From Streptomyces sp. 846.5 (GTDB lineage Bacteria > Actinomycetota > Actinomycetes > Streptomycetales > Streptomycetaceae), in contig NZ_SOBN01000001.1 in the NCBI RefSeq assembly GCF_004365705.1, positions 4,760,001 to 4,824,000 of the forward strand: a stretch of DNA of 64,000 nt, in the 5' to 3' direction. Positions 45,728 to 62,595 of this stretch are shown here, in pieces. Position 1 is the stretch's first letter, and every line of letters begins with the position of its first letter. The notes under the pieces are model-generated. The model ran no database searches. It was not told where the DNA came from and saw nothing but the letters and a program-made list of their open reading frames with translations. The translations under genes were made by a program, and so were the position numbers.

Positions 45728-45738
45728 GTGAAGCTGAG
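45698..45738 (+). promoter_or_regulatory. Hairpin covering the start of the first recombinase gene
   Basis: CTCAGCTTTCAC (45698-45709) and GTGAAGCTGAG (45728-45738) pair along 11 bp with one bulged T. The right arm contains the GTG start codon, so the fold would hide the translation start, or the repeat may be a recombinase-binding site at the element end. Confidence 0.4.
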
Positions 45739-46825: not shown

Positions 46826-47145
46826 AGTGGAACCTGCGGCTGACCGCCGCGAGCAAGGGCATCTGGAAGGCGTCCGAGCTGCAGCGGAGCCTGGCCGAGC
46901 ACGGCCTGGTGATCTCGGCGGGCAAGATGTCCGGGCTGTGGTCCGGGCAGCCGGGCTCCCTCAAGCTGGAGGACCTGGACGTGATCTGCGTCGTCCTCGG
47001 CTGCGAGATCGGCGACCTGCTGATCCCCGAGCCCGGCAACGTCGTCCGCCCCGGACAGCAGGAGACCGGCCGCGCAGCCGTCGGCGCCTCCGCGCCGACA
47101 GTGGTGCCCAAGCGTCGGGACGGCCGCTCGCTGCCGCCGCAGTGA
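46822..47145 (+). CDS. Small Xre-like helix-turn-helix protein
   Basis: The 107-residue protein has a Cro/C1-type fold (GIWKASELQRSLAEHGLVISAGKMSGLWSGQPGSLKLEDLDVICVVLGCEIGDLLIPEP) with a basic, disordered tail. It overlaps both neighbours by 4 bp (ATGA and GTGA), so it is translated with the two recombinases. By position it may be a regulator or accessory DNA-binding factor of transposition, the place TnpC has in Tn554, without obvious sequence likeness. Confidence 0.82.
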   Translation: MKWNLRLTAASKGIWKASELQRSLAEHGLVISAGKMSGLWSGQPGSLKLEDLDVICVVLGCEIGDLLIPEPGNVVRPGQQETGRAAVGASAPTVVPKRRDGRSLPPQ

Positions 47146-48683
47146 GCCGGTATCCGAAGGGGTACCGCAAGCCCACCGATTCCTGCAACAGCTGCCTGGC
47201 CTGGGGCGACTTCCACGGACGGCTCTGCCCGACCTGCTACATGTTCGGCCGCAGCCACGAGGCCGCCGACTGCTCAGGATGCGGCCGCAACCAGCCGCTG
47301 AAGTGGCGCTACTGCCGGCTCTGCTGGCGCCAGGCCAGCCTCAGCACGACCGTCGGCACCGGTCGAGACGGCGCCGACGCAGACGTGCGGGATCGTCTCG
47401 CCGCCGTCCGGCACCACCAACTCTTCTTCGTCGCGCGGCCCTTCCACCGGGGAACAGCCCCGACCGCGCCGCCAAGCGGCCGTCCACGGGGAGCCCCGCG
47501 CAAGCCTCCGCCGACACCGTGCCGGCGGCCGGACACGGCATCGATCCAGCTACCGCTGTTCGGACAGGTCCCAAGGGACTTCGGCCGGCTCGACCCGGCC
47601 ACCGCCGCCCTCGCCAGCCCATGGTTCGCCTGGGCGAAGTACCTGGCCCACGAGCTCGCCGAGGCCCACGGCTGGTCGCGCAACATCCGCTTCGGCGTCA
47701 ACCGCGGCCTGGCCGTCGTGCTCACGGGCTATGTCGCGGGCGACGCCATCAAGCACAGTGAGATATTCGCCCCGCTCAGGGCCCTGGACCTGCGGGTCGG
47801 ACACACCGTCACAGTGCTGAAGGAGATGGGGGTCTTCCTCGACGACCGTGAGCCCTCCTTCGAGCGCTGGCTCGTCGAGCGCCTGCAGGGACTCGCCCCC
47901 GGGATCCGAGCGGAGGCCGAGCGCTGGACCCGGGTCCTGCGTGAGGGCGGTCCCCGCAGCATTCCCCGGCAGCAGAGCACGGTCTGGCTCTACCTCAACC
48001 GGGTCCGTCCCGCGCTGTTGGAATGGTCGCAGCGCTACGACTACCTGCGGGAGGTGACTCGCGACGACGTCGTCGCCCACGTGAAGACGCTGCACGGTCA
48101 CCACCGCCGCGAGCGTCTCGTGGCCTTGAGGTCGCTGTTCGCCTGGGCGAAGCGGTCGGGCCTGGTCTTCCGCAACCCGACCAGCCGGATCAAGGTCGGC
48201 CAGTACGAGTACGGCGTGCTCCAACCGCTCGACTCCGGGCAGGTCGACCGAGCTGTCGCCGCCGTCCGCACACCGGCCGAGCGCCTCATCTTCGTCCTCG
48301 CCGCAGTGCACGCCGCCCGGGTCGCCCAGATCGCCACCCTGACCCTCAACGACGTGGACCTCGGCAACCGCCGGCTGAGCATCGCGGGACGCGTCCGCCC
48401 CCTCGACGAGCTGACCCTTCACCTGCTGCTGAGCTGGCTGGAACACCGCCGGACGCTGTGGCCGAACACCGCGAACCTCCACCTGCTGGTCAACAGCAAG
48501 ACCGCGATGGGCACCGGCCGCGTCAGCAACTTCTGGATCGGCACGAGCATGCGGGGACAGGACGCGACCCTGGAGAGGCTCCGCGTCGACCGGCAGCTCG
48601 AAGAAGCGCTCGTCCAGGGCCCTGACCCACTCCACCTCGCCGAGGTCTTCGGTCTCGATGAGAAGACCGCCATGCGCTACTGA
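47142..48683 (+). pseudogene. Second tyrosine-recombinase-like protein with zinc-finger N-terminus, C-terminus cut off by insertion
   Basis: The 513-residue remaining product begins with Cys-rich zinc-ribbon-like motifs (CNSCLAWGDFHGRLCPTC, CSGCGRNQPLKWRYCRLCW), then a SAM-like core domain and a recombinase-like catalytic region (HAARVAQIATLTLNDVDLGNRRLSI). The classical HxxR box is not evident, so activity may differ. The frame stops at TAC TGA (48681-48683), where an IS630/IS110 nest is inserted at TA. Splicing 48679 to 51500 restores 30 further codons (YADSARALLEQ...) ending at 51591-51593, for an original length of 543 residues. Confidence 0.85.
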
Positions 48684-48792
48684 CGCGAAAATCACGGTCA
48701 GCCCGGCAGACGGAAGGTGCGGCGGTGCCTTGTTGACATGCTTCGGGAACCGGTGGCGGCCGGCCTGCGCAAATGGTGCACTGTGGGCGTTG

Positions 48793-50040
48793 TCAGGCGG
48801 CGGTGTCGGGCTCGATGGGGCTGAAGGTGACGGCGAGCCCGAGGGCCTCTGCCTGGGCGGTGATGCGGGCCTTGGCGCGTTCGGGCTCGCGGCGGGTGTA
48901 GTAGTCGCCGCCGAGTTCGAGGTAGGGCACGCCCTGGGTGAGCATGTGCCACATCGCCGTGGCCATGGAGTGCTCGGTGGCGACCAGGGCTCTCATCGGG
49001 CCTCGGCGGGTGGCTATGCGGTGATAGCGGGCGCTGAGGAACGTGCCGCGGGAGCGGGAGACGGACAGCGCTGCGATGCCGAGGGCGCCCTTGAGGTAGG
49101 TGTTGCCATGTCTGGTCCTGGCGGGTTTGGTCTTCGGCCCTGACTGGTTGGAGCCGGGGGCGAGTCCGGCCCAGGACGCGAAGCATGCGGCGCTGGGGAA
49201 GCAGTCGATGACCGCACCGGCCTCGGCGACCATCACCTGCGCGGTCTTCTCGCCGATACCGGGCATGGTCAGCAGGAGGTCGATCAGGGGGCGAAAGGGC
49301 TCCATCACCACCTCGATCCGTGCCTCCAGTTCGGCGATGGCCGCATCGAAGCCGTCGATTACTTGCAGGTGCAGGCGGGTCAGGAAGGCGTGGTGGCTGG
49401 TGAAGCGGCCGGTCAGGGCCTCGCGCAGCTCGGGGATCTTCGAGCGCATGCGGCCCTTGGCCAGCTCGGCCATCGCCTCGGGGCCGGCCGTGCCCGCACA
49501 CAGGGCCCCGAGCATGAGCCGACCGGAGACGCCGAGGATGTCGGTGGCCACCACGGACAGTTTGACGCCCGCGTCCTCCAGGAGCTTCTCCAGCCGCTGG
49601 TGCTCCTTGGAGCGGTCGTTGGTCAGCTTGGAGCGCAGGCGGGTCAGGTCGCGCAGTTCACGCACGGGTGGCGGCGGCACCAGTGAGCCGCGCAGCAGCC
49701 CGTGGGCTGCGAGTTGAGCCAGCCACTGGGCGTCGTTCACGTCGCTCTTGCGGCCGGGCAGGTTCTTCGCGTGGGCCGCGTTGACCAACTGCACTGGCAG
49801 TGCGTCCTCCAGAAGGTAGTAGAACTGCTTCCAGTAGTCGCCGGTCGCCTCCATGACGACCAGCGTCACGTTCTTGTCCAGGAGGAACTCACGCAGTTCG
49901 AGGACCTGGCCGGTCATCGACCCCCAGGTGGTCACCTCCCTGGCGAAGGTCCCCTTGCGCGCGCCGGGGACCCGGACGCACACCTTGGCGTCCTTCTTGC
50001 TGACGTCCAGCGCGGCGACGCGCTCGTGGACGACGTCCAT
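48793..50040 (-). CDS. IS110-family DEDD transposase
   Basis: This RNA-guided recombinase has 415 residues. The RuvC-like N-terminal domain has the DEDD acids in VAALDVSKKDAK, VVMEATGDYWK and the pair in GRKSDVNDAQWL. A central coiled coil follows, then the transposase_20 (IS116/IS110/IS902) domain LTMPGIGEKTAQVMVAEAGAV...FASWAGLAPGSNQSG. ATG 50040 with GGAGG upstream is preferred; the frame is open to 50112 without a ribosome site. The gene appears intact. Confidence 0.93.
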   Translation of the reverse strand: MDVVHERVAALDVSKKDAKVCVRVPGARKGTFAREVTTWGSMTGQVLELREFLLDKNVTLVVMEATGDYWKQFYYLLEDALPVQLVNAAHAKNLPGRKSDVNDAQWLAQLAAHGLLRGSLVPPPPVRELRDLTRLRSKLTNDRSKEHQRLEKLLEDAGVKLSVVATDILGVSGRLMLGALCAGTAGPEAMAELAKGRMRSKIPELREALTGRFTSHHAFLTRLHLQVIDGFDAAIAELEARIEVVMEPFRPLIDLLLTMPGIGEKTAQVMVAEAGAVIDCFPSAACFASWAGLAPGSNQSGPKTKPARTRHGNTYLKGALGIAALSVSRSRGTFLSARYHRIATRRGPMRALVATEHSMATAMWHMLTQGVPYLELGGDYYTRREPERAKARITAQAEALGLAVTFSPIEPDTAA

Positions 50041-50329
50041 CTCCCACCCCTCCGGGGTTGCCTCGGCAGTCGGTCGGACACCGCTCCGGGGAGGGCTGGG
50101 GTCAGCATGCAATCTGACGCTCGTGCTCGTGGCAACAATCCACGGTTCCCGTGGCCGCCCTCCGCCACCAGACTCAGGTGCGGGCTCACAGGCACCAGAG
50201 TAGATCCGGAGTCATCCGGAACGGACGACAACCATGCTGCCGTTCCCCGTGCGTGGCAGGGGCACAAACGCCGACGACGCCCCCGATTTTCCCGTCCCAC
50301 CGCGAGGCCCGAAGGGCCGCTGAATGACT
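50041..50329 (-). ncRNA. Candidate bridge-RNA region of the IS110 element
   Basis: IS110-group elements encode a bridge RNA in the non-coding leader upstream of the transposase. Here 50160-50164 (CTCCG) pairs with 50207-50211 (CGGAG), and GGTGC (50177-50181) pairs with GCACC (50192-50196). This leaves an internal loop. One side contains ACTCAGGT (50172-50179), identical to the insertion target at 50327-50334. The other contains AGTAG (50199-50203), the complement of CTACT at 48677-48681. These fit the two target guides. The order of guides relative to transposase direction needs checking against known bridge RNAs. Confidence 0.5.
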
Positions 50330-51497
50330 CAGGTTGAATCCGTAGCGTCGTGATCGAGGATCATGGCGGGTGCAGGATCAGGCCGGTGTCGGCAAGGCAA
50401 CCAGTGATCGCGTCAGGCCGGTACTGGATCCGCTTGAGTCGGGAGCGGACGAGCGCTTCGAGGTCGTCGATGCCGGCGAGCAGAAAGTTGACGATGCTCC
50501 GCTTGAGCCAGGACCAGACCCACTCGACGGCATTCAACTCGGGTGCATACCTGGGCAGGTAGAACACCTTCAGCCACTTCCGCCGCGCGGCCCAGGCGGT
50601 GAACTCCGGCGTCTTGTGGGTGGAGACGTTGTCCCACACCAGCACGACCGGAGCGCGCAGCTGATGATGCAGCGCGGTCAGGAAGGCACGGTACTCATCC
50701 AGCGTGAAGCTCTTGGTCTCCTTCCTGCGGCCGTGCCAGGTGTGCAGCCGGTAGGCGAAGCGCGGCCGGTTGTCACCGGGCCGATAGCAGGCCGCACCGA
50801 GCGCGTTGACCCGCCCACGCTTGCGTACATGCACTCTGACCTGCGGGCGGGCCCCGCGCCGTGCCCAGGTCCGGCCTCGCGGCGGGCTCAGCCCCTGCCC
50901 CGACTCGTCGGCGAAGCAGATGTAGGCGCCGAGCTCGCCGGCAGACTTTCCACGGCCGGCCAGGTCTCCTCCCGCCAGCGTGCGATCTCCTCCTCGTCTC
51001 GTGCCGCCGAGCGGCGCACCGGGACCTGCCAGGAGTAACCGTGCCGGTCAAGCAGCTTGCCCACCCCGGTCAGGGTGTAGCTGACATGGCAGGTCCGGCC
51101 GATCAGGTCAGCGACCCGCGCCAGCGTCCAGCGCTGATCGTCCTCGAAACCGCACACCCCGGGCCCGGCGTCCAGCAGCGCAGCCACCTTCTCCCACTGC
51201 CGCCCGCTCAGCCGCTCCCGCGCCACGGGCCCCGCCGAGCACAGCGCCTGCGCCCCGCCCTGCTTCCACGCCGCCCGCCAACGCTCCACCGAGCGCCGCG
51301 TGACCCGCAGATCCCGCGCGATCTGCGCACTCGACTCGCCCACCACGAACCGCTCGGCGACCTCCAGCCGCAACCGTTCCCGACGGGCCTGCTCCTCGGG
51401 CGTGTACCCGCCCGCTGCCGCATACCTCATGATCCAGCCATAGCGCGAGGATCATGAACCGTCACCACCCAAGGCGACGCTGCGGGTTCAATCTGAG
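50328..51497 (-). mobile_element. IS630-family element (right part; left tip at 48680-48681)
   Basis: The terminal inverted repeats are CTCAGGTTGAATCCGTAGCG... (50328-50350) and the complement of 51475-51497, 20 matches in 23. The target TA is duplicated at 48678-48679 and 51498-51499. The IS110 element separates the first two bases of the IS630 left end from the rest. Without it the IS630 is 1170 bp, normal for the family. Confidence 0.85.
50361..51430 (-). CDS. IS630-family transposase in two frames (possible -1 frameshift)
   Basis: The first frame (51430 to 50888) gives a helix-turn-helix region (AERFVVGESSAQIARDLRVTRRSVERW). The DDE domain continues in the -1 frame: FADESGQG, VLVWDNVSTH and NAVEWVWSWLKR supply the three acids. 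Changing frame at GGAAAG near 50945-50950 joins VEKSAGELGAYICFADE smoothly. This may be programmed frameshifting, known in this family, or a single-base deletion. If spliced, the product is about 356 residues, normal for IS630. Confidence 0.85.
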
Positions 51498-51499
51498 TA

Positions 51500-51593
51500 T
51501 GCCGACTCCGCACGAGCTCTGCTGGAGCAGGCCGCTGAACAGCTACTTCAAGGAAACCCGCTCGACCGGGACGTGCAGCGAAGGCAATCATGA
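51500..51593 (+). pseudogene. Detached C-terminal end of the second recombinase
   Basis: Bases 51500-51593 encode the last codons of the interrupted gene at 47142. After removal of 48680-51499 the junction codon TAT reads Tyr and continues ADSARALLEQAAEQLLQGN to a TGA at 51591-51593. The downstream gene's GTG follows 4 bp later, showing these four genes once formed one operon. Confidence 0.85.
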
Positions 51594-51597
51594 GCGA

Positions 51598-52107
51598 GTG
51601 AAGTCGCCCGAAGCAGCAGCAACCGCCCTCCAGGACCAGGCCGCCCTCTGGAGCATGGGAGAGATCCGTGCGATCGACGTCGTCGACGCCGCCTGCGATG
51701 CTCTCGTCGCCGGCCTCGACACCCCCGGCCTTCGAGTCCTCGCCGCCTGCACACGCGCCGAGGCGGATTACGACGTCCACGAGCTGCTGCCCCCGGCACT
51801 CGACGAACTCGGCCTGGTTTTCCATCCGATCGCCAGCGACGCGGGCCAAGAGGCCGCCGCCCGAGCACTCGCACGCCGCATGCTCGCCGGCGACCTGACA
51901 CTTCGGGAATTCACTTTCCGGATCCACCAGCGCTACGGACACCAGTTGCCCCTGACCGAACGGCTCGCAGAACTCGATGACGAGTACGACACCCTCGAAT
52001 ACGGCAACCGAACCGTGGATCAGGTGGATACCGAGGTCACAGCCGAAGCCCGCCGCCTCGCAGCCCACCCCCACGTTCCCGCCGAACCCACGGACACACT
52101 CAGCTGA
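51598..52107 (+). CDS. Conserved hypothetical protein of the recombinase operon
   Basis: This acidic, soluble, all-helical-looking protein has 169 residues from GTG 51598, or 150 from the ATG at 51655. No known domain is recognised. The stretch GEIRAIDVVDAACDALVAGLDTPGLRVLAACTRAEADYDVHELLPPALDELGL and the ending YDTLEYGNRTVDQVDTEVTAEARRL have the look of a conserved actinobacterial family of unknown role. It starts 4 bp after the original stop of the second recombinase, so it was its operon partner. The nested IS now probably cut it off from its promoter. Confidence 0.65.
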   Translation: MKSPEAAATALQDQAALWSMGEIRAIDVVDAACDALVAGLDTPGLRVLAACTRAEADYDVHELLPPALDELGLVFHPIASDAGQEAAARALARRMLAGDLTLREFTFRIHQRYGHQLPLTERLAELDDEYDTLEYGNRTVDQVDTEVTAEARRLAAHPHVPAEPTDTLS

Positions 52108-52174
52108 CGCATACGGCACGACCCCCGGGTTCCCGCTGAGCAGGCTTCAGTTTTCATGAACCCACGGGCCTCTA

Positions 52175-52224
52175 CGGGCGTGAGTAGTTCCGGTACAGGA
52201 AGTAGCGCCGAGAAAGATCATGGT
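52175..52224 (+). repeat. Left terminal inverted repeat of the Tn3-family transposon
   Basis: The sequence begins CGGGCGTGAGTAGTTCCGGT and ends GAAAGATCATGGT. It is identical over 50 bp to the reverse complement of 62123-62172. The tnpA start lies 88 bp inside. Confidence 0.95.
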
Positions 52225-52311
52225 GGGCGTGCTTACCACGGGGCAGCGCTGGCTTGATGCAGTTCTGACAACCTGGCCCGGTCGGTGGAGTGCTGGCGCT
52301 ACGGTCCGCGC

Positions 52312-55300
52312 GTGCCGGTGGAGTTTCTGAGTGATGAGCAGGCGGGGTCCTACGGGACGTTCACGCAGGTTCCGACGCGCCCTGAGCTGGAGCGCTTCTT
52401 CTTCCTGGACGACGATGACCGCGAGCTGATCGCGTTGCGCCGGACGGACGGTCACCGTCTGGGCATGGCGGTGCAGATCTGCACGGTTCGGTACATCGGG
52501 ATGTTCCTGGCGGACGATCCGCTGGCGGTGCCCTGGGAGGTGGTCACCTACCTGGCGGGGCAGCTGGGGATCGAGGACTCCTCCTGCCTGAAGGGCTATC
52601 CCGAGCGGCGGATGACGCCCTATCAGCACGCCCAGCAGATCCGGGAGCGGTTCGGGTACCGCGACTACCTGGACCGGGAGTGGTCGCGGCGCTTTCGGAC
52701 CTTCTTGTACGGCCGGGCGTGGACGCATGCGGAGGGGCCGGTGGCGCTGTTCAACCACGCGGTGACGTGGTTGCGGCGCAACCGGGTGCTGCTGCCGGGG
52801 GTGAGCGTGCTGGCGCGGCAGGTCTCCGAGGCTCGCCAGGCGGCGGACCGGCGGTTGTACGAGGCGGTGGCGCAGGCCACTGGGAAGGCGGCTCCCACCC
52901 TGGGGCCTGGGCTTCGCCAACTCCTGGTGGTGCCCGAGGGCAAGCGGGTCTCGGAGTTGGAGCGGCTGCGGATGCCGCCGACGAAGTCGACGGGCACCGC
53001 GATGATGCGGGCGATGGAGCGCGTCGAGGAGATCTCCGCGTTCCGGCTGGGGCGGGTGAACCTGTCGCGGGTGCCGGTGAATCGGCTGAACACCCTGGCC
53101 CGGTACGGGCAGCTGAGCAAGGCCCAGACGATCGAGCGGGCGCCGGAGCCGCGGCAGACGGCGTTGTTGACCGCCGTGGTGCGCAATCTGGAGGCGCAGG
53201 CGGTCGATGACGCGCTGGACCTGTTCTCGGTGCTGATGGCGAACCGGCTGATCAGCACGGCCAAGCGGGCCTCGGACCGGGAGCGGCTGTCGACGCTGCC
53301 GGCGCTGGAGAAGGCGGCGCAGACGCTGGCGAGGGCGTCGAAGATCCTGGTGGAGGAGCTGGACCGGGTCGAGACCCGGGAGGCGGACCTGGATGTGGCC
53401 GCGTTGTGGGCGGCGGTGGAGGAGGCGGTGTCCCGCGAGGCGGTCTCCAGCGCGGTGGCAATGGTCGAGGCGCTGGTGCCGGAGGACGACGGGTCGGCCG
53501 AGTCGGCGATGCGCGAGAAGCTGGGCCAGCGCTACAACACGGTTCGCCCGTTCCTGTCCCTGCTGGGTGAGTCGAACGCGCTAGGGGCGGCCCAGGGCGG
53601 CAAGCGGGTGCTGAAGGCGGTGCGCAAGCTGCCGGCGCTCTCGCGGCGCCGGGTCAAGGAGCGCCCGCTGCTGCCGAAGGAGATCGACGCGGAGCTGGTG
53701 CCGAAGATCTGGCGGCGGGCGGTGTTCAGCAACGCCGACCTGCCCAAGGGCGCGGCGGACCGCGACGCCTACGTGGTGTGCGTGCTGGAGCTGCTGTTCA
53801 AGGCCCTGGCGCGCCGGGACGTGTTCGCCTCGCCCTCGCAGCGGTGGGCGGACCCGCGGGCGCGGCTGCTGGACGGGGCCCGGTGGGAGGCGATGCGCGC
53901 GGACGTGCTGGCGGGGCTGAGCCTGCAGGTGCCGGTGGGCGAGCACCTGCTCTCGCTGCGGGTGGCGCTGGATGCGGCCTGGCGGCAGATGGCGGACCGG
54001 ATGGCCGAGGCCGGCGAAGACGCGAAGGTCGAGGTCGTGGTCCCCGAGGGCGGGGGCCGGGCGAAGTTGTCGGTGGACAAGCTCGGCTCCATCGGCGAGC
54101 CGGAGTCGCTGAAGGTGCTGAAGGAGAGGGTGGAGGCGATGCTGCCGCGCATCGACCTGCCGGATCTGTTGTTCGAGGTTCACGCCTGGACCGGGTTCCT
54201 GGACGCCTTCCGGCACGTCTCCGGGCGGGCCGCGCGGATGGAGGGGCTGGAGAGGAGCCTGGTGGCGCTGCTGGTCGCGGAGAGCTGCAACATCGGCCTG
54301 ACCCCGGTCATCGACGCGGGCGAGAAGGCGCTGACCCGCTCGCGGCTCTCGCACGTGGACCAGAACTACCTGCGGGCCGACACCCTGGCCGCCGCGAACG
54401 GGCTGCTGATCGCGGCCCAGGGCCGGATCGAGCTGGCGCAGAGGTGGGGCGGCGGACTGCTGGCCTCGGTCGACGGGCTGCGGTTCGTGGTGCCGGTCAA
54501 GAGCATCAACACCGGCCCTTCGCCCAAATATTACGGATACAAGAGGGGCCTGACCTGGCTCAACGCGGTAAATGACCAGGTCGCCGGGATCGGCGCGATG
54601 GTCGTGCGCGGCACCCCGCGCGACAGCCTGTTCACCCTGGACACGCTGCTGAACCTGGACGGCGGGGTCCGACCGGAGATGATCGCGACCGACAACGCCT
54701 CGTACTCCGACATCGCGTTTGGCCTGTACAAGATGCTGGGCTTCCGGTTCGCGCCGCGCTTCCGGGACCTGGCCGACCAGCGGTTCTGGCGCGCTGACGC
54801 CCCGCCTGCACCGGCCGGCGCGGAGCTGGCCGGGGACTACGGGCCGCTGGAGAAGATCGCGGTCAACAAGGTCAACCTCCAGAAGGTCGAGACCTGGTGG
54901 CCGGACATGCTGCGGGTGGCCGGGTCACTGATCACCAACCAGCTCCGTGCCTACGACCTGCTGCGGATGTTCGGCCGCGAGGGGCACCCGACCCGCTGGG
55001 CCAGGCGTTTGCCGAGTACGGCCGCATGGACAAGACCATGCACCTGCTGGCGTTGGTCGACCCGGTCGACGACACCTACCGCCGGCTGATGAACCGCCAG
55101 CTCACGGTCCAGGAGTCCCGGCACCGCCTCGCACGGGCAATCTGCCACGGCGGGCGCGGGCAGATCCGGCAGGCCTACCGCGAGGGCCAGGAGGACCAGC
55201 TCGCCGCGCTCGGCCTGGTGCTCAACGCCGTGGTGCTGTGGAACACCAGGTATCTGGACGCCGCGGTGACCGCGCTGCGGGCGGCCGGCGACATCGAGGT

Positions 55301-55466
55301 CAACGACGAGGACGTGGCCCGGCTGTCCCCGCTGAAGAACCGCCACATCAACTTCATGGGCCGCTACCAGTTCAACTTCGCCGCTACCTCGCCCCAGCAG
55401 GGGCTGCGTGCGCTACGCGATCCCGACGCGTCGGGTCTGGACGAGGACGGCGAAGGCGAGGAGTGA
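52312..55466 (+). pseudogene. tnpA: Tn3-family transposase TnpA, one-base frameshift
   Basis: This replicative transposase would be 1,051 residues if intact. N-terminal VEFLSDEQAGSYGTF and ELERFFFLDDDDRELI are family starts. The first two catalytic acids are in LASVDGLRF and IATDNASYSDIAF. At about 54993 one C is missing (GACCCGCTGG, where CCG ACC CCG CTG GGC is expected). The frame breaks after GREGHPT and the rest (GQAFAEYGRMDKT...) continues in another frame to 55466. The third catalytic Glu (GQEDQLAALGLVLNAVVLWNT) lies in that last part, so the uncorrected product would be inactive. GTG 52312 is the likeliest start. Confidence 0.9.
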
Positions 55467-55547
55467 GAGCTCCGGCTACTACCCTTCAGCAGCCCGACGT
55501 ACTCAGCGCTACACGTCACCTGGCCCTAGCTTTCCGAAGAACAGGGC

Positions 55548-56315
55548 CTACTGGGCGGTGTAGCCGCCGTCGACGGGCAGAGCGATCCCGGTGACGTAGC
55601 TGGCGCCGTCGCTGCATAGCCACAGGACGGCCTGGGCGATCTCCTCGGCGGTGCCGAGGCGATCGATGGCCTGGCCGGCTTCGGCCTGGTCGCGGTCAAG
55701 TTCGCCGCCCTCGACCATGGCGTCGACCATTGGGGTGGCGATGGTGCCGGGGCAGACGGCGTTGATCCGCACGCCCCGGGAGCCGTATTCGAGGGCTGCG
55801 CTCTTGGTCATGCCGATCACGCCGTGCTTGGAGGCGTGGTAGGCGGCGCGGCCGGGGTTGCCGACCAGGCCGCCGAGGCTGGAGCAGTTGACGATGGCGC
55901 CGCTTCCCTGGTCGCGCATGTGGCGCAGTTCGTGCTTCATGCTCGCCCAGATACCGCGCAGGTTGACGGCCTGGACGCGGTCGAACTGCTCGGCGCTCTC
56001 ATCGGCGGCGTCGGTGGGCGGTGGCATGATGCCAGCGTTGTTGTAGGCCATGTCGAGCCGCCCGAAGGTCTCCACGGTGCGGTCGACCGCGGCGGCGACC
56101 TGGTCCTCGTCGGTGACGTCGCAGACCAGGGCGAGGGCCCGGTGGCCGGCGTCGGTGAGCTCCTTCGCCGCCTTGTTGACGGCGCTCTCGTCGATGTCGG
56201 CGAGGCCGACGGCGACGCCCGAGGCGGCGAAGGCACGGGCGGCGGCCAGGCCCATGCCGGAGGAGGCGCCGGTGACAAAGGCGACCTGGCCGGTGAAGTC
56301 GTAGGTGGGGTTCAC
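55548..56315 (-). CDS. SDR-family oxidoreductase (transposon cargo)
   Basis: This classical short-chain dehydrogenase/reductase has 255 residues. The NAD(P) motif is TGASSGMG at 15-22, NNAG is intact, catalytic Ser is in VNCSSLGG and YHASK supplies the Tyr-Lys pair. The C-terminus YVTGIALPVDGGYTAQ is complete. The acidic residue after the second strand (LADIDE) suggests NAD(H) preference. GTG 56315 has AGGAG at a good distance. It is the last gene of a leftward operon: alcohol dehydrogenase, cupin, SDR, SDR. Confidence 0.9.
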   Translation of the reverse strand: MNPTYDFTGQVAFVTGASSGMGLAAARAFAASGVAVGLADIDESAVNKAAKELTDAGHRALALVCDVTDEDQVAAAVDRTVETFGRLDMAYNNAGIMPPPTDAADESAEQFDRVQAVNLRGIWASMKHELRHMRDQGSGAIVNCSSLGGLVGNPGRAAYHASKHGVIGMTKSAALEYGSRGVRINAVCPGTIATPMVDAMVEGGELDRDQAEAGQAIDRLGTAEEIAQAVLWLCSDGASYVTGIALPVDGGYTAQ

Positions 56316-56364
56316 GTCGGTCTTCTCCTGTCGAGAGGCGGGACGGGATGCGGCGCGGACTGCC

Positions 56365-57234
56365 TCAGTCCCGGAGGGCTCGGGTGCCGCCTCGTCGTCC
56401 CACGTGCGGGCCGCGGTACGGGGTCAGCCGGCTCATCGCCCCGGCGAGCCGGTTGTCAGGTGGTCTGGCCGCCGTCGACGACGAGCGAGGCGCCGGTGTG
56501 GTGAACGCCGCGTCCGCGGAGCACAGCCACAGGACGGCGGAGGCGATCTCCTCGGGCTTGCCAAGGCGCCCGACGGGTTCCTCGGCGATAAGTCCGTCGC
56601 GACCACCGGGGCGGGTGTCGCCGAAGCGGCGGATCATCTCAGTGTCGATGATGCCGGGGCACACCGCGTTGATGCAGATGCCGTCGGCAGCGTGGTCCAG
56701 GGCGGCGGACCGGGTGAAGCCGATGATGCCGTGCTTGGCGGCGGCATAGGCAGCCTGCCCCTTGAAGCCCTTGAAGCCCTTGACGCCGGCGCCGGAGGAG
56801 ACGTTGACGATGGCGCCGCCGCCGTCCTGCTGGAGCATCTGCCGGATCTGGGCGCGGGTGCACAGGAACACGCCGGTGAGGCTGACGCCCAGGATGCGGT
56901 CCCAGTCGTCCTTGGCGGTGTCGGCGGCCGGCTGGACGGGCTGCTCGACGCCAGCGTTGTTGAAGGCGGCGTCCAGGCGCCCGAAACGCTCCACGGTGCG
57001 GTCGACCGCGGCCTGGACGTCGCCCTCGCTGGTGACGTCAGCGGGGAGCACGAGTGCTTGGCCCCCGCTGTCGGTGATCAGTTGTGCGGTCTGCTGCAGG
57101 CCGTCCTCGGACAGGTCGACGAGAGCGACCTGTGCTCCGGCTCTGGCGAAGGCGAGCGCGGTGGCACGGCCGAGGCCGGAGGCCGCTCCGGTGACGAACG
57201 CGGCCTTGCCGTGGAAGTCGTAGGTGACGGTCAC
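56365..57234 (-). CDS. SDR-family oxidoreductase with frameshifted C-terminus (transposon cargo)
   Basis: This is a second SDR, similar to the first in layout. It carries TGAASGLG near the N-terminus, NNAG, VNVSSGAG and YAAAKHGIIG. About 240 residues follow the family. After DAAFTT the frame departs: an extra dinucleotide (GTGTG at 56496-56500, complementary strand AC) shifts it. The family ending TTGASLVVDGGQTT with a stop at 56456-56458 lies in another frame. The present product carries about 45 foreign residues to 56365. The core and active site remain, but the dimer-forming C-terminus is altered. GTG 57234 is the start. Confidence 0.82.
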   Translation of the reverse strand: MTVTYDFHGKAAFVTGAASGLGRATALAFARAGAQVALVDLSEDGLQQTAQLITDSGGQALVLPADVTSEGDVQAAVDRTVERFGRLDAAFNNAGVEQPVQPAADTAKDDWDRILGVSLTGVFLCTRAQIRQMLQQDGGGAIVNVSSGAGVKGFKGFKGQAAYAAAKHGIIGFTRSAALDHAADGICINAVCPGIIDTEMIRRFGDTRPGGRDGLIAEEPVGRLGKPEEIASAVLWLCSADAAFTTPAPRSSSTAARPPDNRLAGAMSRLTPYRGPHVGRRGGTRALRD

Positions 57235-57279
57235 GTCGGTTCTTCTCGCTTCCTGATGTGGGGCCGTCGGGGGTGGGGT

Positions 57280-57687
57280 TCAGTCGGCCGGGGTGGCGGT
57301 GTACTCCTGGTCGGTCACGGGGGTGAGCCAGTGGACGACGTCGTGGTCGGCGTCGCCTTCGTTGATGGCCAGGTGGACCATCAGCCGGTCGGGTGCGGCG
57401 CCGTGCCAGTGCTCCTCCTCGGCCTCGAACAGGACGCGGTCGCCTGGCCGGATGACCTCGACCGGTCCGCCTCGGCGCTGGCACAGGCCGACGCCTTCGG
57501 TGACGAAGACGGTCTGGCCAAGTGGGTGGCGGTGCCAGTGGGTGCGCGCACCGGGCATGAAGTGCACCAGGTTGGCGGTGACGCGGGAGGGGGCGGGGGC
57601 TGCGGCGACGGCGTCGATGTAGACGTCGCCGGTGAACCAGTCGGCGGGGCCCTTGCGGGTCTCGATCGAGCTGCGGGTGATCTGCAC
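57280..57687 (-). CDS. Cupin-domain protein (transposon cargo)
   Basis: This small 135-residue beta-barrel protein has both cupin motifs. GARTHWHRHPLGQTVFVTEG has the two metal-binding His residues and Glu/Gln, and HWHGA lies in the second motif. It resembles the carboxymuconolactone-decarboxylase-associated cupins found beside SDR and alcohol-dehydrogenase genes. It probably binds a metal and may be a small isomerase or dioxygenase-like enzyme. It starts with GTG 57687, 29 bp after the dehydrogenase stop. Confidence 0.85.
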   Translation of the reverse strand: MQITRSSIETRKGPADWFTGDVYIDAVAAAPAPSRVTANLVHFMPGARTHWHRHPLGQTVFVTEGVGLCQRRGGPVEVIRPGDRVLFEAEEEHWHGAAPDRLMVHLAINEGDADHDVVHWLTPVTDQEYTATPAD

Positions 57688-57716
57688 GATTGCTCCTTGC
57701 GCGGGTGGTCGAAGGG

Positions 57717-58670
57717 TCAGGGCTTGAGGAGGGTCTTGATGGCGCGGCGCTCGTCCATCGCGCGGTAGCCCTCGGCGACCTGCTCAAGAGGCAGAGTGAG
57801 GTCGAAGACCTTGCCCGGGTCGATGGCACCGGCAAGGACGCGGTCGATGAGGTCGGGCAGGTAGCGGCGTACCGGAGCCGGACCGCCGCGCAGGCCCACG
57901 TGGGAGAAGAACAGCTCCTGCCCGTCGAGGGCGACGTCGTGCGGGACGCCGACGAACCCGACGTTGCCGCCGGGGCGGGCGCAGTGCAGGGCCTGCCGCA
58001 TGGCCTGGGCGGTGCCGACGCATTCCAGGACGCTGTCGGCGCCGATCCCCCCGGTCAGTTCCTTGATCCGGGCCGCGCCCTCCTCGCCGCGTTCGGTGAC
58101 GATGTCGGTGGCCCCGAACTGGCGGGCGAGCTTCTGCCGCGATGCGTGGCGGCTCATGGCGATGATCCGCTCGGCGCCCATCTCCTTGGCGGCGATCACC
58201 GCGCACAAGCCAACCGCGCCGTCACCGACGACCACGGCGGTGGAGCCCGGCTTGACCTCGGCCGCATCCGCGGCCCACCAGCCGGTGCCCATCACGTCGG
58301 AGACGGCCAGCAGGCTCGGCCACCACTCCTCACCCGGCACCTCGTCGGTGGCGACCAGGGTGCCCTGGGCGTTGGGGATGCGCACGTACTCGGCCTGGCA
58401 GGTGGACATGAACTCGCGGTGCAGACAGTTCGACTGGAAGCCGTTGCGGCAGTTGGGGCAGGTATTGTCCGAGGTGGCGAAGGAGCCGACAACGAATTGA
58501 CCCGGCCTGACCGAGGTGACGGCGCTGCCGACCTCCTCGACGAAGCCGACGTACTCGTGGCCCATCGGATGCGGATCGCCGGTCGGCTCCGCGCCACGGT
58601 AGGGCCACAGGTCCGAGCCGCACACACAGGTCACAGCCGTGCGGATGATCACATCGGTGGCGCCGCGCAT
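57717..58670 (-). CDS. Zinc-dependent alcohol dehydrogenase, short N-terminus (transposon cargo)
   Basis: This medium-chain dehydrogenase has catalytic-zinc ligands in VTCVCGSDLWPYRG and GHEYVGFVEEVG, structural-zinc cysteines in TSDNTCPNCRNGFQSNCLHR, and the nucleotide-binding GDGAVGLCAVI. At ATG 58670, preceded by AAGGAA, it has 317 residues. Close relatives usually carry about 25 further N-terminal residues before the GxTD-VVRV strand, which are missing here. The upstream frame to 58835 shows no likeness to them. It is the first gene of the leftward cargo operon. Confidence 0.82.
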   Translation of the reverse strand: MRGATDVIIRTAVTCVCGSDLWPYRGAEPTGDPHPMGHEYVGFVEEVGSAVTSVRPGQFVVGSFATSDNTCPNCRNGFQSNCLHREFMSTCQAEYVRIPNAQGTLVATDEVPGEEWWPSLLAVSDVMGTGWWAADAAEVKPGSTAVVVGDGAVGLCAVIAAKEMGAERIIAMSRHASRQKLARQFGATDIVTERGEEGAARIKELTGGIGADSVLECVGTAQAMRQALHCARPGGNVGFVGVPHDVALDGQELFFSHVGLRGGPAPVRRYLPDLIDRVLAGAIDPGKVFDLTLPLEQVAEGYRAMDERRAIKTLLKP

Positions 58671-58879
58671 GAGGAGTTCCTTACGTGCCAAGGCGTCCGC
58701 TACACGCCAGCGCGTGTACCGGGCACCGCCGAATACGGTCGCGGACCCGGTGCAGGGGACGAAACCGCCGCCCACGGGCCCAGGGCAAGCCGGAGGCCCA
58801 GGCTGGACGGAATGGACCGGAGCACATACCGACATTCGTCACCTGACCCCGACCGGTGCGGGGCCGCCGGGGTTCCCTC
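58671..58879 (-). promoter_or_regulatory. Leader region of the cargo operon
   Basis: About 210 bp separate the alcohol dehydrogenase start from the hairpin ending the hydrolase transcript. It must hold the promoter of the four-gene operon. An open frame runs through it (to 58835), but its Pro/Gly-rich translation is not protein-like. CCCCG-ACCGGTG-CGGGG near 58848 is a minor inverted repeat. The 21-bp palindrome found before the regulator gene is not repeated here. Confidence 0.4.
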
Positions 58880-58900
58880 CCTGGGAGACTCTTTCCCAGG
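58880..58900 (-). terminator. Hairpin after the hydrolase gene
   Basis: CCTGGGA (58880-58886) and TCCCAGG (58894-58900) form a perfect 7-bp stem with a 7-nt loop, 9 bp past the leftward hydrolase stop. It likely separates the hydrolase transcript from the four-gene operon. Confidence 0.55.
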
Positions 58901-58909
58901 ATGGAACCG

Positions 58910-59866
58910 CTACGTGAGATGCGTGGAGAAGAATGTCTCCAGCTTGTCGAACGGGATCAGGTCGGTCCGGTCGTAGAGGTCGATGTGCCGCGCCCCCGGC
59001 ACTACCACCAGTTCCTTGGGCCCCGTCGCCTGCTCGTGGACGGTGTCGCTGAAGTAGCGGGAGTGGGCGTGCTCGCCGGTGATGAGCAGGATCGGCCTCG
59101 GTGCGATGTCCGGGAGGTGGCGGAGCTGCCCGAAGTTCATGTGGGAGGCAGTGCTGGTGACGGTGAAAGCGCCGATGGACCGCGGGTGGTGGCCGCGGGA
59201 GGTGGGCACGTAGTACTCGAAGAACTCGCTGGTGATCGGGTCGAGACCGTCGGGCACCTCACTGGGGAAGGTGGGCGTCAGTGCGGGTTCGCCCGCGTCG
59301 ACGTCCTTCCAGCGCTGCGCCGCGATCTCGTCGAGCGCTTTGCGGCGCTCGTCGTCGCTCGTGGTGTCCTGCCACCCGTTGCGCGCGACACGGCTGATGT
59401 CGTACATGGCCGCTGTCGCGACGGCCTTGATCCGTGTGTCGACCTGCGCGGCGCTCAGCGCGAATCCGCCGCTGCCACAGACCCCGATGACGCCGATCCT
59501 GTCGCGGTCGACATAGGGCAGCGAGCCCAGGAAGTCGACACCCGCGCTGAAGTCCTCGGCGAACAACTCCGGGGAGGCGACGTGGCGAGGCTCGCCTCCG
59601 CTCTCGCCGTTGTACGACGGGTCGAAGCCGACGGCGACGAACCCGCGCCTGGCCATCTCCTGGCCGTACACCCCGGGAGCCTGCTCCTTCACCCCGCCGT
59701 AGGGCGGGCCGATGACGATTGCCGGGTGCCCGACCGACTCGTCGAGATCGACGCTGCGGTACAGATCCGCGGCGATCTCGACGCCGTAGCGGTTCCTGTA
59801 GCGGACGGAGGTCCGTGTGACCTCGTCGGAGAGCACGAACGTGTAACCGTCGTCCTGTAGAGGCAT
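58910..59866 (-). CDS. Alpha/beta hydrolase, YcjY/dienelactone-hydrolase-like (transposon cargo)
   Basis: The hydrolase has 318 residues. The oxyanion region is GPPYGGVKEQAPGVYGQEMARRGFVAVGFDPSYNGESGG, the nucleophile elbow is GVCGSGGFAL with the central Ser, and late Asp/His candidates lie in LLITGEHAHSRYF and PGARHIDLYDR. This layout matches YcjY-like hydrolases found as single partners of Xre-MmyB regulators. ATG 59866 is chosen because AAGGAG sits 8 nt upstream; ATG 59872 is too close to it. The gene is divergent from the regulator. Confidence 0.87.
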   Translation of the reverse strand: MPLQDDGYTFVLSDEVTRTSVRYRNRYGVEIAADLYRSVDLDESVGHPAIVIGPPYGGVKEQAPGVYGQEMARRGFVAVGFDPSYNGESGGEPRHVASPELFAEDFSAGVDFLGSLPYVDRDRIGVIGVCGSGGFALSAAQVDTRIKAVATAAMYDISRVARNGWQDTTSDDERRKALDEIAAQRWKDVDAGEPALTPTFPSEVPDGLDPITSEFFEYYVPTSRGHHPRSIGAFTVTSTASHMNFGQLRHLPDIAPRPILLITGEHAHSRYFSDTVHEQATGPKELVVVPGARHIDLYDRTDLIPFDKLETFFSTHLT

Positions 59867-60009
59867 GCTCATCGCTCCTTGCATCAAAGACTCTTGCGAG
59901 TCGGTACGACTGGGCAGGTGCGCACCCCCGACCCGTCGTGCAGACGGACCGGAAGCACCACCTCCACCAGGTAACCCGCTCGTGGCACGGTTAGCGAGAC
60001 ACCACCAAA

Positions 60010-60030
60010 GGATGTACTGCCAGTACATCC
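60010..60030. promoter_or_regulatory. Perfect 21-bp palindromic operator between hydrolase and regulator
   Basis: GGATGTACTG-C-CAGTACATCC is a perfect 10-1-10 palindrome, 33 bp before the regulator's GTG and 143 bp before the hydrolase ATG. It is the obvious binding site of the divergently encoded MmyB-type regulator, probably controlling both promoters. Confidence 0.8.
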
Positions 60031-60063
60031 CTATGGCCGCGCACGCCACGTACCGTCGAAGGC

Positions 60064-60960
60064 GTGGACAACCAAGCAGAAGTCCGTGAGTTCCTCACCT
60101 CACGGCGCGCGAAGATCACCCCCGACCAGGCGGGCCTGCCCTGCGGCAGCCGTCGGCGCGTGCCCGGCCTGCGCCGCAGCGAGGTCGCCGCGCTGGCCGA
60201 TATGAGCGTGGAGTACTACGCCAAGCTGGAGCGCGGCAACCTCGCCGGCGCCTCCCCGGCCGTCCTGGAAGCCCTCGCCCGCACCCTCCAACTGGACGAC
60301 GCCGAACGCGCCCACCTGCTGAATCTGGCCCACGCCGCCGACGGCTCCGACGCCCTCACCCGCCGGCGTACCAAGGACCAGTGGAAACCGCACCGCAGCC
60401 TGCAGTGGACCCTGGACGCCATCACCGCGGGACCCGCGTTCGTGTGCAACGCGCGCATGGACCTCCTGGCCACCAACCAGCTCGCCCGCGGCTTCTACGC
60501 CGACGTCCACGCCACACCCGCAAACCAGGCGAACCTCGCCCGGTTCAACTTCCTGGATCCTGCCTCGCGCCGCTTCTACCCCGACTGGGACCAGGCCGCC
60601 GACATCGCCGTCGCCATCCTGCGCACCGCAGCCGGCCGCAACCCCCACGACAAGGACCTCCACGACCTCGTCGGGGAACTGTCCACCCGCAGCGACGACT
60701 TCCGCACACGCTGGGGCACCCACAACGTCCGCCACCACGGCACCGGCACCAAACGCTTCCACCACCACACCGTCGGCGACCTCACCCTCGCCTACGAAGG
60801 CCTGGACTTGGCCGCCGAACCCGGACTCACCCTCACCATCTACACCGCCGAACCCGGCTCCCCCTCCGAAGAAGCACTACGCCTGCTCGCCTCCTGGACC
60901 GCCACGCCCCAGACCCCGCACCACACGCCAGCAACCCCTGAGCCCGGACAGACGATATGA
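60064..60960 (+). CDS. Xre-family regulator with MmyB ligand-binding domain (transposon cargo)
   Basis: This 298-residue transcriptional regulator has an N-terminal helix-turn-helix (FLTSRRAKITPDQAGLP, RRVPGLRRSEVAALADMSVEYYAKLERGN). The MmyB-like ligand-binding domain follows from about residue 110 (PAFVCNARMDLLATNQLARGFYADV, NLARFNFLDPASRRFYPDW, FHHHTVGDLTLAYEGLDL, YTAEPGSPSEEALRLLASW). Such regulators are commonly paired with neighbouring SDR or hydrolase genes in actinobacteria, and a fatty acid or similar lipid is the supposed ligand. It starts with GTG 60064. Confidence 0.92.
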   Translation: MDNQAEVREFLTSRRAKITPDQAGLPCGSRRRVPGLRRSEVAALADMSVEYYAKLERGNLAGASPAVLEALARTLQLDDAERAHLLNLAHAADGSDALTRRRTKDQWKPHRSLQWTLDAITAGPAFVCNARMDLLATNQLARGFYADVHATPANQANLARFNFLDPASRRFYPDWDQAADIAVAILRTAAGRNPHDKDLHDLVGELSTRSDDFRTRWGTHNVRHHGTGTKRFHHHTVGDLTLAYEGLDLAAEPGLTLTIYTAEPGSPSEEALRLLASWTATPQTPHHTPATPEPGQTI

Positions 60961-61208
60961 ACCCACGGGGGTGCAAAAGCACACAGCGGACCGACGTGCC
61001 TTCCGAAAATCCATCGAGCGCCTCAGCGAAGTGATCATCCGCCGCAACTGTCGTCAAACGATCATTTGACGACAGGAAGCCGACGGGCTCAATGAACCCC
61101 TGCAATCCTGGGGCTCATGGCGGCCCGAATCCAATCAGATCCGATGGTGATTGCTGACAGGGTTTGACGACAGATAGGGTCCAATCCTCCGTCAGGAAGG
61201 GGCCTTCG
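60961..61208 (+). other. res-like resolution site region upstream of the resolvase
   Basis: CTGTCGTCAAA (61048-61058) and TTTGACGACAG (61065-61075) form a perfect inverted repeat with spacer CGATCA. A further direct copy of TTTGACGACAG lies at 61163-61173. The 28-bp dyad is the right size for a crossover subsite of a serine resolvase, and the third copy marks an accessory half-site 36 bp from the resolvase GTG. These repeats may also autoregulate the gene. No gene is supportable in this 248-bp stretch. Confidence 0.7.
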
Positions 61209-62123
61209 GTGGCAAACCTGGTCTACAAGCGGGTCTCGACCGACCAGCAGTCGACCGCCCGGCAGAACCTCGTGCTGGAGGAGGCTGGCGTCCAGGACCC
61301 GGTCGTCTTCGAGGAGGCCCCGGGCACCTCCAGCCGACTCCACCCCCTCCAGCGGCCCAAGTTCCGCGAACTGCTCACCTACGCCCGGCCCGGCGACACC
61401 GTGCATATCTCCGAGATGTTCCGCCTCGTACGCGGCACCGGGCACATCCTCGACGTACTCGACGTCCTGCACCGCGACCGCCTCGCCCTGCGCATCCACG
61501 ACGGCGCGTTCTCCGCGATGGACCTCACCGCCCGCCACCCGCGCACCGGCGAGCTGCTGTCCACCGTGAAGTTCATGGTGCAGACCCTCGCCGCCGCCGG
61601 CGAACTCCAGCGCGACCTCCAACGAGAACTGACCTACGACGGCCTGCGGGCCGCCGAAGCCAAGGGCCGCAAGGGTGGGCGCCGCCCCGCCCTGGCCACC
61701 GAGAGGACCCACACCGTCCGCACCGAGTACCTGGAAGGCCGCTCCATCGCCGCCCTGGCCCGCGACCACGGGGTGAGCCGCGGCGCGATCCGCACGGCCG
61801 TCGCCGACCTCATGCCCGACCACACCGCCACCGAGAAGGACGCCCCCGCCCCGGAGTTGCCGGTCACCCTCGACATGCCGGGCAAGGTCGCCGACTTCCT
61901 CCTCGCCGCCGAGCTGGAGCCGGCCGAGCGCGCCGCACTCGACCTGGGCGTGGCCGTACGGCGCGGCCAGGGCTACACCCTGCGCGTCAGCGCCGCCCCC
62001 GCCATGCACCGCCAGCTCCTCGCACACTGCCAGCCGCTCGACGACAGCCAGGGCGTCCCAGCGGTCCCGGCCCAGCGCAAGGCCCGCCGCGAGTACGAGA
62101 ACCGGATCAGCGCCATCACCTGA
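61209..62123 (+). CDS. tnpR: Serine resolvase/recombinase of the Tn3-family transposon
   Basis: This site-specific serine recombinase resolves transposition cointegrates. Catalytic Ser lies in YKRVSTDQQSTARQ, followed by RPKFRELLTYARPGDTVHISEMFRLVRG, the long E-helix and a C-terminal helix-turn-helix (GRSIAALARDHGVSRGAIRTAV). At 304 residues it exceeds the usual about 190 because of a C-terminal extension of about 110 residues. GTG 61209 has AGGAAGGGG just upstream. Its stop falls in the right inverted repeat. Confidence 0.9.
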   Translation: MANLVYKRVSTDQQSTARQNLVLEEAGVQDPVVFEEAPGTSSRLHPLQRPKFRELLTYARPGDTVHISEMFRLVRGTGHILDVLDVLHRDRLALRIHDGAFSAMDLTARHPRTGELLSTVKFMVQTLAAAGELQRDLQRELTYDGLRAAEAKGRKGGRRPALATERTHTVRTEYLEGRSIAALARDHGVSRGAIRTAVADLMPDHTATEKDAPAPELPVTLDMPGKVADFLLAAELEPAERAALDLGVAVRRGQGYTLRVSAAPAMHRQLLAHCQPLDDSQGVPAVPAQRKARREYENRISAIT

Positions 62124-62172
62124 CCATGATCTTTCTCGGCGCTACTTCCTGTACCGGAACTACTCACGCCCG
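62123..62172 (-). repeat. Right terminal inverted repeat of the Tn3-family transposon
   Basis: It is the exact reverse complement of 52175-52224 over 50 bp. It overlaps the last base of the resolvase stop and abuts an IS110 transposase remnant. Confidence 0.95.
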
Positions 62173-62471
62173 GAGCCGCACTGGGCGAGGCCGCCGCCTC
62201 AGCCTCGCGCACCGACACCTTCCTCGGTGCCCGCTACCGGCGCCTGGTCAAACGACGGGGCCACAACCGCGCCCTGGTCGCGGTCGCCCGCTCCATCCTG
62301 ATGATCGTCTGGCACCTGATCAACGACCCCGACGCCGTCTACCAGGACCTCGGCCCCGACTGGCACCACCGCCTGGGCGACCCAGTCCGCAAAACCCGCG
62401 ACCTCGTCCGACAACTCGAAAAACTCGGCCACCAGGTCACCCTCGCCCCTACCGCCGAACCCGCTACCTGA
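62172..62471 (+). pseudogene. C-terminal remnant of an IS110-family transposase
   Basis: Read from 62172, the frame gives GEAAASASRTDTFLGARYRR, then RRGHNRALVAVARSILMIVWHLI and RKTRDLVRQLEKLGHQVTL, ending at TGA 62469-62471. This is the usual end of an IS116/IS110-type transposase, about 99 residues. Everything before it is missing; the Tn3-family repeat begins exactly where it breaks. It is a different lineage from the intact IS110 transposase at 48793. Confidence 0.85.
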
Positions 62472-62595
62472 ACACCCGCCACACCCCCGTCCGACCGGCT
62501 CCGCCGACCGGACGCCACCGCGCGCCCACAGAACGTCTGGGTTTCCATTTAGCCCTCGCAAGCATCCGACCAATGCCCGAAGTGTCGGAATTCTC

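Follow-up and report, generated by a model that had tools for sequence, protein, structure and literature searches.

A Tn3-family transposon and its cargo

We analyzed a 64,000-nucleotide stretch (the window) of the genome of Streptomyces sp. 846.5 (G000, 9.03 Mb in five contigs), in which a Tn3-family transposon at 52175..62172 adjoins a tyrosine-recombinase integrative element (IE). The transposon is bounded by 50-bp terminal inverted repeats (52175..52224 on the plus strand and 62123..62172 on the minus strand) that sequence comparison revealed to be identical at 50/50 positions. A 30-mer from the repeat matched the window twice, compared to a mean of 0.00 in 100 shuffles. Between the repeats are a Tn3-family tnpA, six cargo genes, a res region, and a gene for a serine resolvase. 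The initial annotation had reported these perfect repeats, genes, and a res-like site. Matches to Pfam and NCBIfam models confirmed the genes, the res region proved to be shared with related elements, and the assignment to the Tn3 family is supported.

The tnpA gene (52285..55466, plus strand) encodes a Tn3 DDE transposase with a DUF4158 domain and is divided into two open reading frames (ORFs; 52285-55089 and 54897-55466). Matches to PF01526 and NF033527 are spread over the two frames, which are separated by a break near 54,990. The genome contains one full copy of the transposon, and its second tnpA match is a 36% piece, with no other. Since tnpA is out of frame, the transposon is probably not self-mobile now and is probably fixed unless helped in trans. 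The res region (61048..61182) is followed by tnpR (61209..62123, plus strand), the last base of whose stop codon is the first base of the right repeat. A match to the resolvase domain (PF00239) and the res region shared with relatives support the identification of this pair.

A 34-base probe from the repeat, with up to three mismatches allowed, recovered from the genome both transposon ends and, in addition, a single solo repeat of the same transposon type. It lies on the 76-kb contig C5 (C5:19285-19318, L003) and resembles a right end.

Neither an empty site nor a second full copy, which the initial annotation had suggested looking for, was found in the genome. On its left the transposon is flanked by the IE, and on its right by a remnant (62175..62527, plus strand) that looks IS110-like by eye and has an 82% relative elsewhere in the genome. 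This remnant had no Pfam match, and its other part was not found at the far end of the IE. Since the IE lies 2 bp outside the left repeat, the left neighbor is not the original target. The 5-bp target duplication was also not found, as CTCTA lies at the left and GAGCC at the right.

Five enzyme genes are encoded on the minus strand. SDR1 (55548..56315; Pfam/NCBIfam matches and homologues) and SDR2 (56365..57234) are short-chain dehydrogenases (SDRs). Homologues match SDR2 over approximately residues 1-246 of 289, and its C-terminus is out of frame. The cupin (57280..57687) scored 171.7 bits against the (R)-mandelonitrile-lyase model NF049940 (cut-off 140). It aligns with 4bif through a WHxHPLGQT motif, whose residues we take to be metal-binding. 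For the zinc alcohol dehydrogenase (ADH; 57717..58670), the start was chosen from homologue matches, as the frame opens at 58835 and carries ~50-60 surplus N-terminal residues that homologues do not match. The alpha/beta hydrolase (58910..59866), closest to PA2218 (2hdw) and YcjY, was similarly given a chosen start, as its listed ORF, open from 60049, is longer than homologue matches support. No single close assigned enzyme appeared for ADH or SDR1 in our comparison tables. From these families, the enzymes together most likely carry out detoxification or conversion of a reactive ester, lactone, or aldehyde. The tnpA split, the departure of SDR2 from its homologues after approximately residue 246, the ADH surplus, the absent target duplication, and the mobile left flank had been missed in the initial annotation.

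Divergent from this SDR-containing operon, across a symmetric site, is the gene for an MmyB-type regulator (60064..60960, plus strand) with an XRE helix-turn-helix (PF13560) and an MLTR ligand-binding domain (MLTR_LBD; PF17765, E 1.4e-59). Sequence comparison at E 0.001 detected no relative of solved structure. Between operon and regulator is a palindromic candidate operator (60010..60030). Alignment of 15 upstream regions (with L042 and L046 left out) revealed a common palindrome-like stretch near GGTGTACYGNCAGTACATCC that is perfect in some regions and imperfect in others. The exact pattern GRTGTACYGNCAGTACAYCCC occurred in 33/297 family genomes, while the reversed pattern occurred in none. 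A regulator match was near 28 of the 30 operator loci returned, and in 25 of these, the window and G066 included, the palindrome lay 31-35 bp upstream of the regulator. At three loci (L183, L192, and L193) the regulator match began within the regulator, and no regulator match was nearby at two (L171 and L194). This conserved footprint supports self-regulation of the operon, and the regulator-operator-enzyme unit described in the initial annotation appears to be real.

The genome contains a second cupin-ADH-regulator cassette (C1:91096-93665, L029) with no tnpA or tnpR nearby. Operator sites were found in the transposon (0 mismatches), in this transposon-free cassette (C1:92,761, 1 mismatch), and at three places with 3 mismatches; the reversed control gave one site. 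The two regulators may cross-talk.

Exchange of modules at res

We compared the transposon with relatives drawn from a resolvase scan of genome contigs, which gave 80 loci of 171 relatives (L073-L152), together with an element on plasmid p-XQ-29-A of S. griseoaurantiacus (L026). Besides the window element, 19 had paired repeats with 44-50 identities of 50, although L149 ends at the contig, and for L100, L116, L126, and L127 the rule used may misplace the start of the repeat. A 5-bp duplication was present in 9/18 relatives with a readable right flank. Thus, repeats of ~50 bp, which the initial annotation had considered longer than usual, are ordinary among the transposon's relatives, and a missing duplication is common. 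As a target duplication can vanish after insertion, the window element was filed under the Tn3 family on its other features. Some relatives have tnpA as a single long gene, and others, such as the element in G066, have it in pieces. The L026 element is close to that of the window (TnpA 82% and TnpR 83% identical, with repeats of the 50-bp type) but differs in having tnpA annotated as one coding sequence, a CATAT duplication, and other cargo.

A TnpA-like match was present upstream of the resolvase gene, on the same strand, at 54/80 loci. At these 54 loci, identity to the window proteins ranged from 23 to 82% for TnpA and 78-88% for the resolvase; since the loci were picked by resolvase similarity, the range for TnpA is the informative one. 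A tree of 46 resolvase rows requires 16 changes between four TnpA classes (the least possible is 3), compared to a mean of 21.6 in shuffles. As none of 200 shuffles gave so low a number, the TnpA classes are partly clustered. From the starred branches of this tree, the minimum number of changes is 4 for classes B and D, 3 for class C, and 1 for class A. Two loci, L076 and L085, have near-identical resolvases and different TnpA classes. In an alignment of 19 rows upstream of tnpR (of which L143, L145, and L084 failed to align in this part), shared homology begins at the outer palindrome of res, on the cargo side (window position 61048), and what lies beyond is cargo. Since the outer edge of res marks the limit of the cargo, and the sequences of TnpA and TnpR indicate different histories, modules have been swapped between these transposons.

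The cargo of other elements, which we read by eye from translations without a family search, includes a P-type ATPase-like protein with an ArsR-like regulator (L093), an FAD monooxygenase-like protein with a TetR-like regulator (L086), EamA-type transporter-like proteins (L082 and L102), and beta-lactamase-like proteins (L075 and L110). On the same backbone, an element of Actinacidiphila paucisporea (L145) carries MmyB-regulated aldo/keto reductase-like and decarboxylase-like genes, also read by eye.

Versions of the operon without the transposon are present in plasmids and chromosomes. A plasmid search returned 108 records with some match, none of which covered 80% of the transposon. Several transposon-free operons encode a major facilitator superfamily (MFS) transporter, a cyclophilin-like protein, and a third SDR (SDR3) between SDR2 and the cupin. 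The window operon lacks all three and has the hydrolase as its first gene. By gene content, the window cargo is thus a shortened form of this operon, which is also present in transposon-free settings. The hydrolase is rare, as it was detected in 14/297 family genomes at E 1e-60, including its own. In one of these operons (G165, L204), the order is regulator, ADH, hydrolase, SDR3, cyclophilin-like protein, MFS transporter, SDR2, SDR1, and cupin. In G216, the hydrolase gene diverges from the regulator gene, with the operator between them.

The cassette lies beside the same resolvase in three genomes (3/80 resolvase loci). These are the window genome; G066, where it is directly upstream of tnpR and retains SDR3 and the cyclophilin-like gene; and Streptomyces sp. 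8L (L125), where the MFS gene is also kept, the regulator is in two pieces, and no cupin match was found in the cassette. Searching from the operator instead, a resolvase was within 1.5 kb at 2/30 loci, those of G066 and the window. Other MmyB-type regulators are upstream of tnpR in L145 and L140, and three more MmyB matches are elsewhere in the flanks of resolvase loci (L109, L118, and L148). In a regulator tree, the two transposon-borne rows fall apart, with G066 grouping with G280 (99/88), at whose locus there is no TnpR within 1.5 kb. The ADH tree, the only one to contain L125 because of its divided regulator, does not force more than one origin. The trees do not place the transposon-borne cassettes in one clade, and are compatible with either one capture or several.

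An integrative element beside Tn3 repeats

The IE (45577..52172, plus strand) begins with TGTGCGACAT and ends with CGGGCCTC, 2 bp from the transposon, and is interrupted by an insertion sequence (IS). It encodes a tyrosine recombinase (45728..46825, plus strand; Phage_integrase, PF00589, E 2.2e-22). An open frame of uncertain start (46743..48683, plus strand), cut by the IS, contains a large second recombinase-like protein that gave only weak Pfam matches (E 0.007 and 0.013), below curated cut-offs. The IS (48681..51497) consists of an IS110 transposase and a DDE_3 piece and has three further near-identical copies in the genome. A small protein follows in an ORF (51454..52107, plus strand) that begins inside the end of the IS. 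The gene order of the IE, which is similar in a named plasmid (L373), is recombinase, helix-turn-helix protein, large recombinase-like protein, and small protein. The left end at 45577 is common to all eight copies shown, whose left-hand flanks look unrelated, and the termini carry the imperfect inverted motifs CCCGYGAGTTC (left) and GAACYCRCGGG (right). On this gene content and these ends, we class the IE as a Tn554/GInt-like tyrosine-recombinase element.

In the seven IE copies first seen, the right end was followed in six by a repeat matching the separately built catalogue described below. We searched 394 family genomes with a 42-base right-end pattern, taken from the upstream side of these seven seed copies and allowing up to three mismatches, and found sites in 55; the reversed pattern gave none. 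Of 80 distinct ends read, 79 had enough sequence, the window included. These were scored against a catalogue of Tn3 repeats from resolvase-bearing transposons (27 found, with L117 left out as unlikely), using a threshold of 23 of 38 identities. A catalogue-matching repeat followed 38/79 IE ends, compared to 0/234 windows further downstream and 0/237 shuffles, while the reversed catalogue matched at 1/79 ends. Without the seven seed sites, 32/72 ends matched, and among ends with the exact IE pattern, 14/16 did. The distance from the terminal CGGG to the repeat was 6 bp in 24/40 cases and 7 bp in 9/40. Across 60 sites with at most two mismatches, the six bases consist of NNTC and two free bases.

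Transposases were also found beside the IE. Our own Tn3 transposase profile, built from 39 long ORFs of which a few are probably in the wrong frame, matched downstream of the IE at 15/56 sites (574 kb) versus 1/56 beyond the far side (243 kb). At one locus (L317), a Tn3 transposase lies beside the IE (E 1.8e-121), and in plasmid L368 an annotated Tn3 transposase adjoins it. We inspected 12 of the 23 named plasmid hits to the IE end; by eye, a repeat-like sequence follows the end in nine and in L375, with L376 unclear and L377 lacking one.

The most informative arrangements involve identical IEs. G010 contains three copies, 100% identical over 3,729 bp, that adjoin two unrelated repeat types, the window type once and the other twice. 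The two that adjoin the other type (L359) lie inverted at both ends of a 10.0-kb Tn3 transposon whose paired repeat ends match at 36/36 positions and whose transposase matches PF01526 (E 1.8e-126). G160 has a comparable inverted pair (L311), with a Tn3 transposase between its members (E 3.1e-60). In the window genome, too, two IE copies that are 99.97-100% identical adjoin two different Tn3-type repeats. Since identical IEs lie next to different repeats, we ruled out that the repeat is part of the IE itself.

In four one-sided cases, a partner repeat could be found, and the 5-mers at the near and far ends differ in all: CTCTA/GAGCC in the window, CTCGC/AACGC in L314, CTCGA/TCGGA in L332, and GCCGT/AACGG in L353. 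In L314 and L332, but not in the window or L353, the two free bases are the same as those that end the far 5-mer, which would fit entry of the IE 2 bp outside a target-duplicated transposon. Recombination between the two IE copies of the window genome was considered as the cause of the lost duplication and set aside, since no matching 5-mer was present in the 60 bases shown.

Weighing the explanations

The explanation that accommodates most of our data, to which we assign a probability of roughly 0.78, joins three parts. The chassis would be an actinobacterial Tn3-family replicative transposon with 50-bp repeats, a DUF4158-type TnpA, a conserved res, and a serine resolvase, which took up an oxidoreductase operon under MmyB-type control next to the outer limit of res. 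The regulator would bind the palindrome and, upon sensing a small organic ligand, allow production of the hydrolase, zinc ADH, cupin, and SDRs, resulting in putative carbonyl detoxification or conversion. With tnpA out of frame, the transposon is probably fixed unless helped in trans, and an independent IE lies 2 bp outside its left repeat. Since IE right ends lie repeatedly beside unrelated Tn3 repeats, this group of elements most likely integrates at Tn3 ends of several repeat sequences, and both the presence of identical IEs at different repeat types and the inverted pairs at both ends of a Tn3 transposon favor movement of the IE to these ends. As an association across genomes, this target specificity is supported. 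Because the targeted repeats share almost no sequence, we lean toward a model in which the streptomycete IE integrates 2 bp outside Tn3 repeats and recognizes the end by a cue beyond its base sequence, for example transposase bound there or nicked or branched transposition DNA. Of the transferable carbonyl pathway proposed in the initial annotation, the carbonyl chemistry is plausible from the enzyme families, but the unit is probably not self-mobile.

Several observations weigh against this explanation. Below the catalogue threshold were 41/79 IE sites, some of which look like Tn3 repeats by eye and some of which do not (L240, L270, L243, L250, and L239), and matches were recorded at 10/21 ends with one mismatch to the IE pattern, 12/23 with two, and 2/19 with three. 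As the left-end motif was present within 12 kb upstream in only 22/56 sites looked at, many IE sites may be partial or diverged elements; similarly, with transposase profile matches at so few sites, many or most of the adjoining repeats seem to be solo. In the window, the right-flank 5-mer is absent from both the 60 bases left of the IE and the gap between IE and repeat, and any order of events there is therefore tentative. At L314 in G010, the IE and a small Tn3-like segment are together flanked by an 11-bp direct repeat, AACGCCGCAGC (L360 represents this same duplicated region); in its simple forms, the end-seeking model does not predict such a repeat. For the operon, the G165 regulator is of a divergent type (44% to the window's kind in L038/L039), and the exact operator pattern is absent from G165.

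The IE end could instead be a hot spot into which Tn3 transposons insert. A nearly constant distance between IE end and repeat is expected under either order, and the unrelated left-hand flanks of the IE copies fit this idea. However, to explain the inverted pairs in G010 and G160, two IEs facing each other would have to have been in place already. In addition, the 5-mers for which duplication across the Tn3 element is expected differ in all four one-sided cases, and few exact IE ends lack a catalogue repeat (2/16). We therefore regard a hot spot as unlikely and prefer an IE that seeks Tn3 ends. Far less probable still is a resident operon that came to lie between the repeats by a secondary accident. 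The initial annotation had taken widespread occurrence of the cargo at fixed places without the repeats as evidence that it is not transposon-borne. The cargo does occur without repeats in other genomes and plasmids and, away from any tnpA or tnpR, elsewhere in the same genome, but no single fixed place was seen. Perfect repeats at both ends, a cargo that abuts res, and a cassette likewise placed beside tnpR in both G066 and Streptomyces sp. 8L all argue for an operon acquired by the transposon.

The frame breaks could also be assembly errors in an active transposon. The tnpA break adjoins a short one-base run, the frames of the other cargo genes are intact, and the repeats are perfect. Yet there are two breaks in 10 kb, that of SDR2 is not obviously in a one-base run, the genome has one full copy, and a target duplication is missing, making this doubtful, if not quite as unlikely as a hot spot. 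We also think it improbable that the enzymes serve a specialized pathway, such as cyanohydrin chemistry, rather than general carbonyl detoxification. The cupin passes the (R)-mandelonitrile-lyase cut-off, and the solved structures closest to it are 4bif, 4uxa, and 8oz8, but cupins of this kind may act as lyases only incidentally, and the remaining operon is generic redox.

The transposon is thus a real element of an ordinary kind, with a well-supported regulated operon, and illustrates how a self-regulated metabolic operon can travel on a Tn3 chassis with modules swapped at res. The interest lies mainly in its neighbor. If the IE truly seeks Tn3 ends, this would be a new targeting specificity, in which a site-specific recombinase follows several kinds of transposon. 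Such targeting could account for some of the missing target duplications and offer a way to study the intermediates of Tn3 transposition. We found no description of Tn3-end-seeking tyrosine-recombinase elements in the open-access literature searched.

IS4321 and IS5075 are of the IS1111 type. Like the IE in the proposed reading, they are mobile elements that target Tn3-family terminal repeats. They enter Tn21-type repeats and are insertion sequences, while the IE is a tyrosine-recombinase element that lies 2 bp outside repeats of several sequence types (PMC8269217). As described in PMC10214605, Tn554, SEs, GInts, and RIT elements resemble the IE in having an ordinary and a large tyrosine recombinase, small proteins, imperfect terminal repeats, a spacer of ~6 bp, and target specificity. 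They are described as integrating at a few selected places, in contrast to the Tn3 ends that the IE adjoins, and the IE differs in its helix-turn-helix gene between the recombinases.

For the transposon, PMC7157771 describes module exchange between transposons at res site I and toxin-antitoxin pairs that abut res. The window element is similar in its cargo boundary at the outer res subsite and its exchanged modules, but has a metabolic operon at res rather than a toxin-antitoxin pair. Tn4556 of Streptomyces fradiae, as described in PMC6403206, is likewise a Streptomyces Tn3-type transposon with passengers between tnpA and the resolvase gene, and has the 5-bp target duplication also seen in 9/18 relatives of the window element. 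It differs in its 38-bp repeats, its methyltransferase and prenyl transferase cargo, and a resolvase described with a phage-integrase motif, compared to the serine resolvase of the window. MmyB-type regulators beside SDR or medium-chain dehydrogenase/reductase (MDR) genes are a known pattern; in SCO4944/SCO4945 and similar pairs, the regulator is divergent from dehydrogenase genes and a symmetric DNA target is expected (PMC3406030). Those are described as regulator-target pairs, whereas in the window the palindrome is defined and the operon, of five genes, is carried by a transposon.

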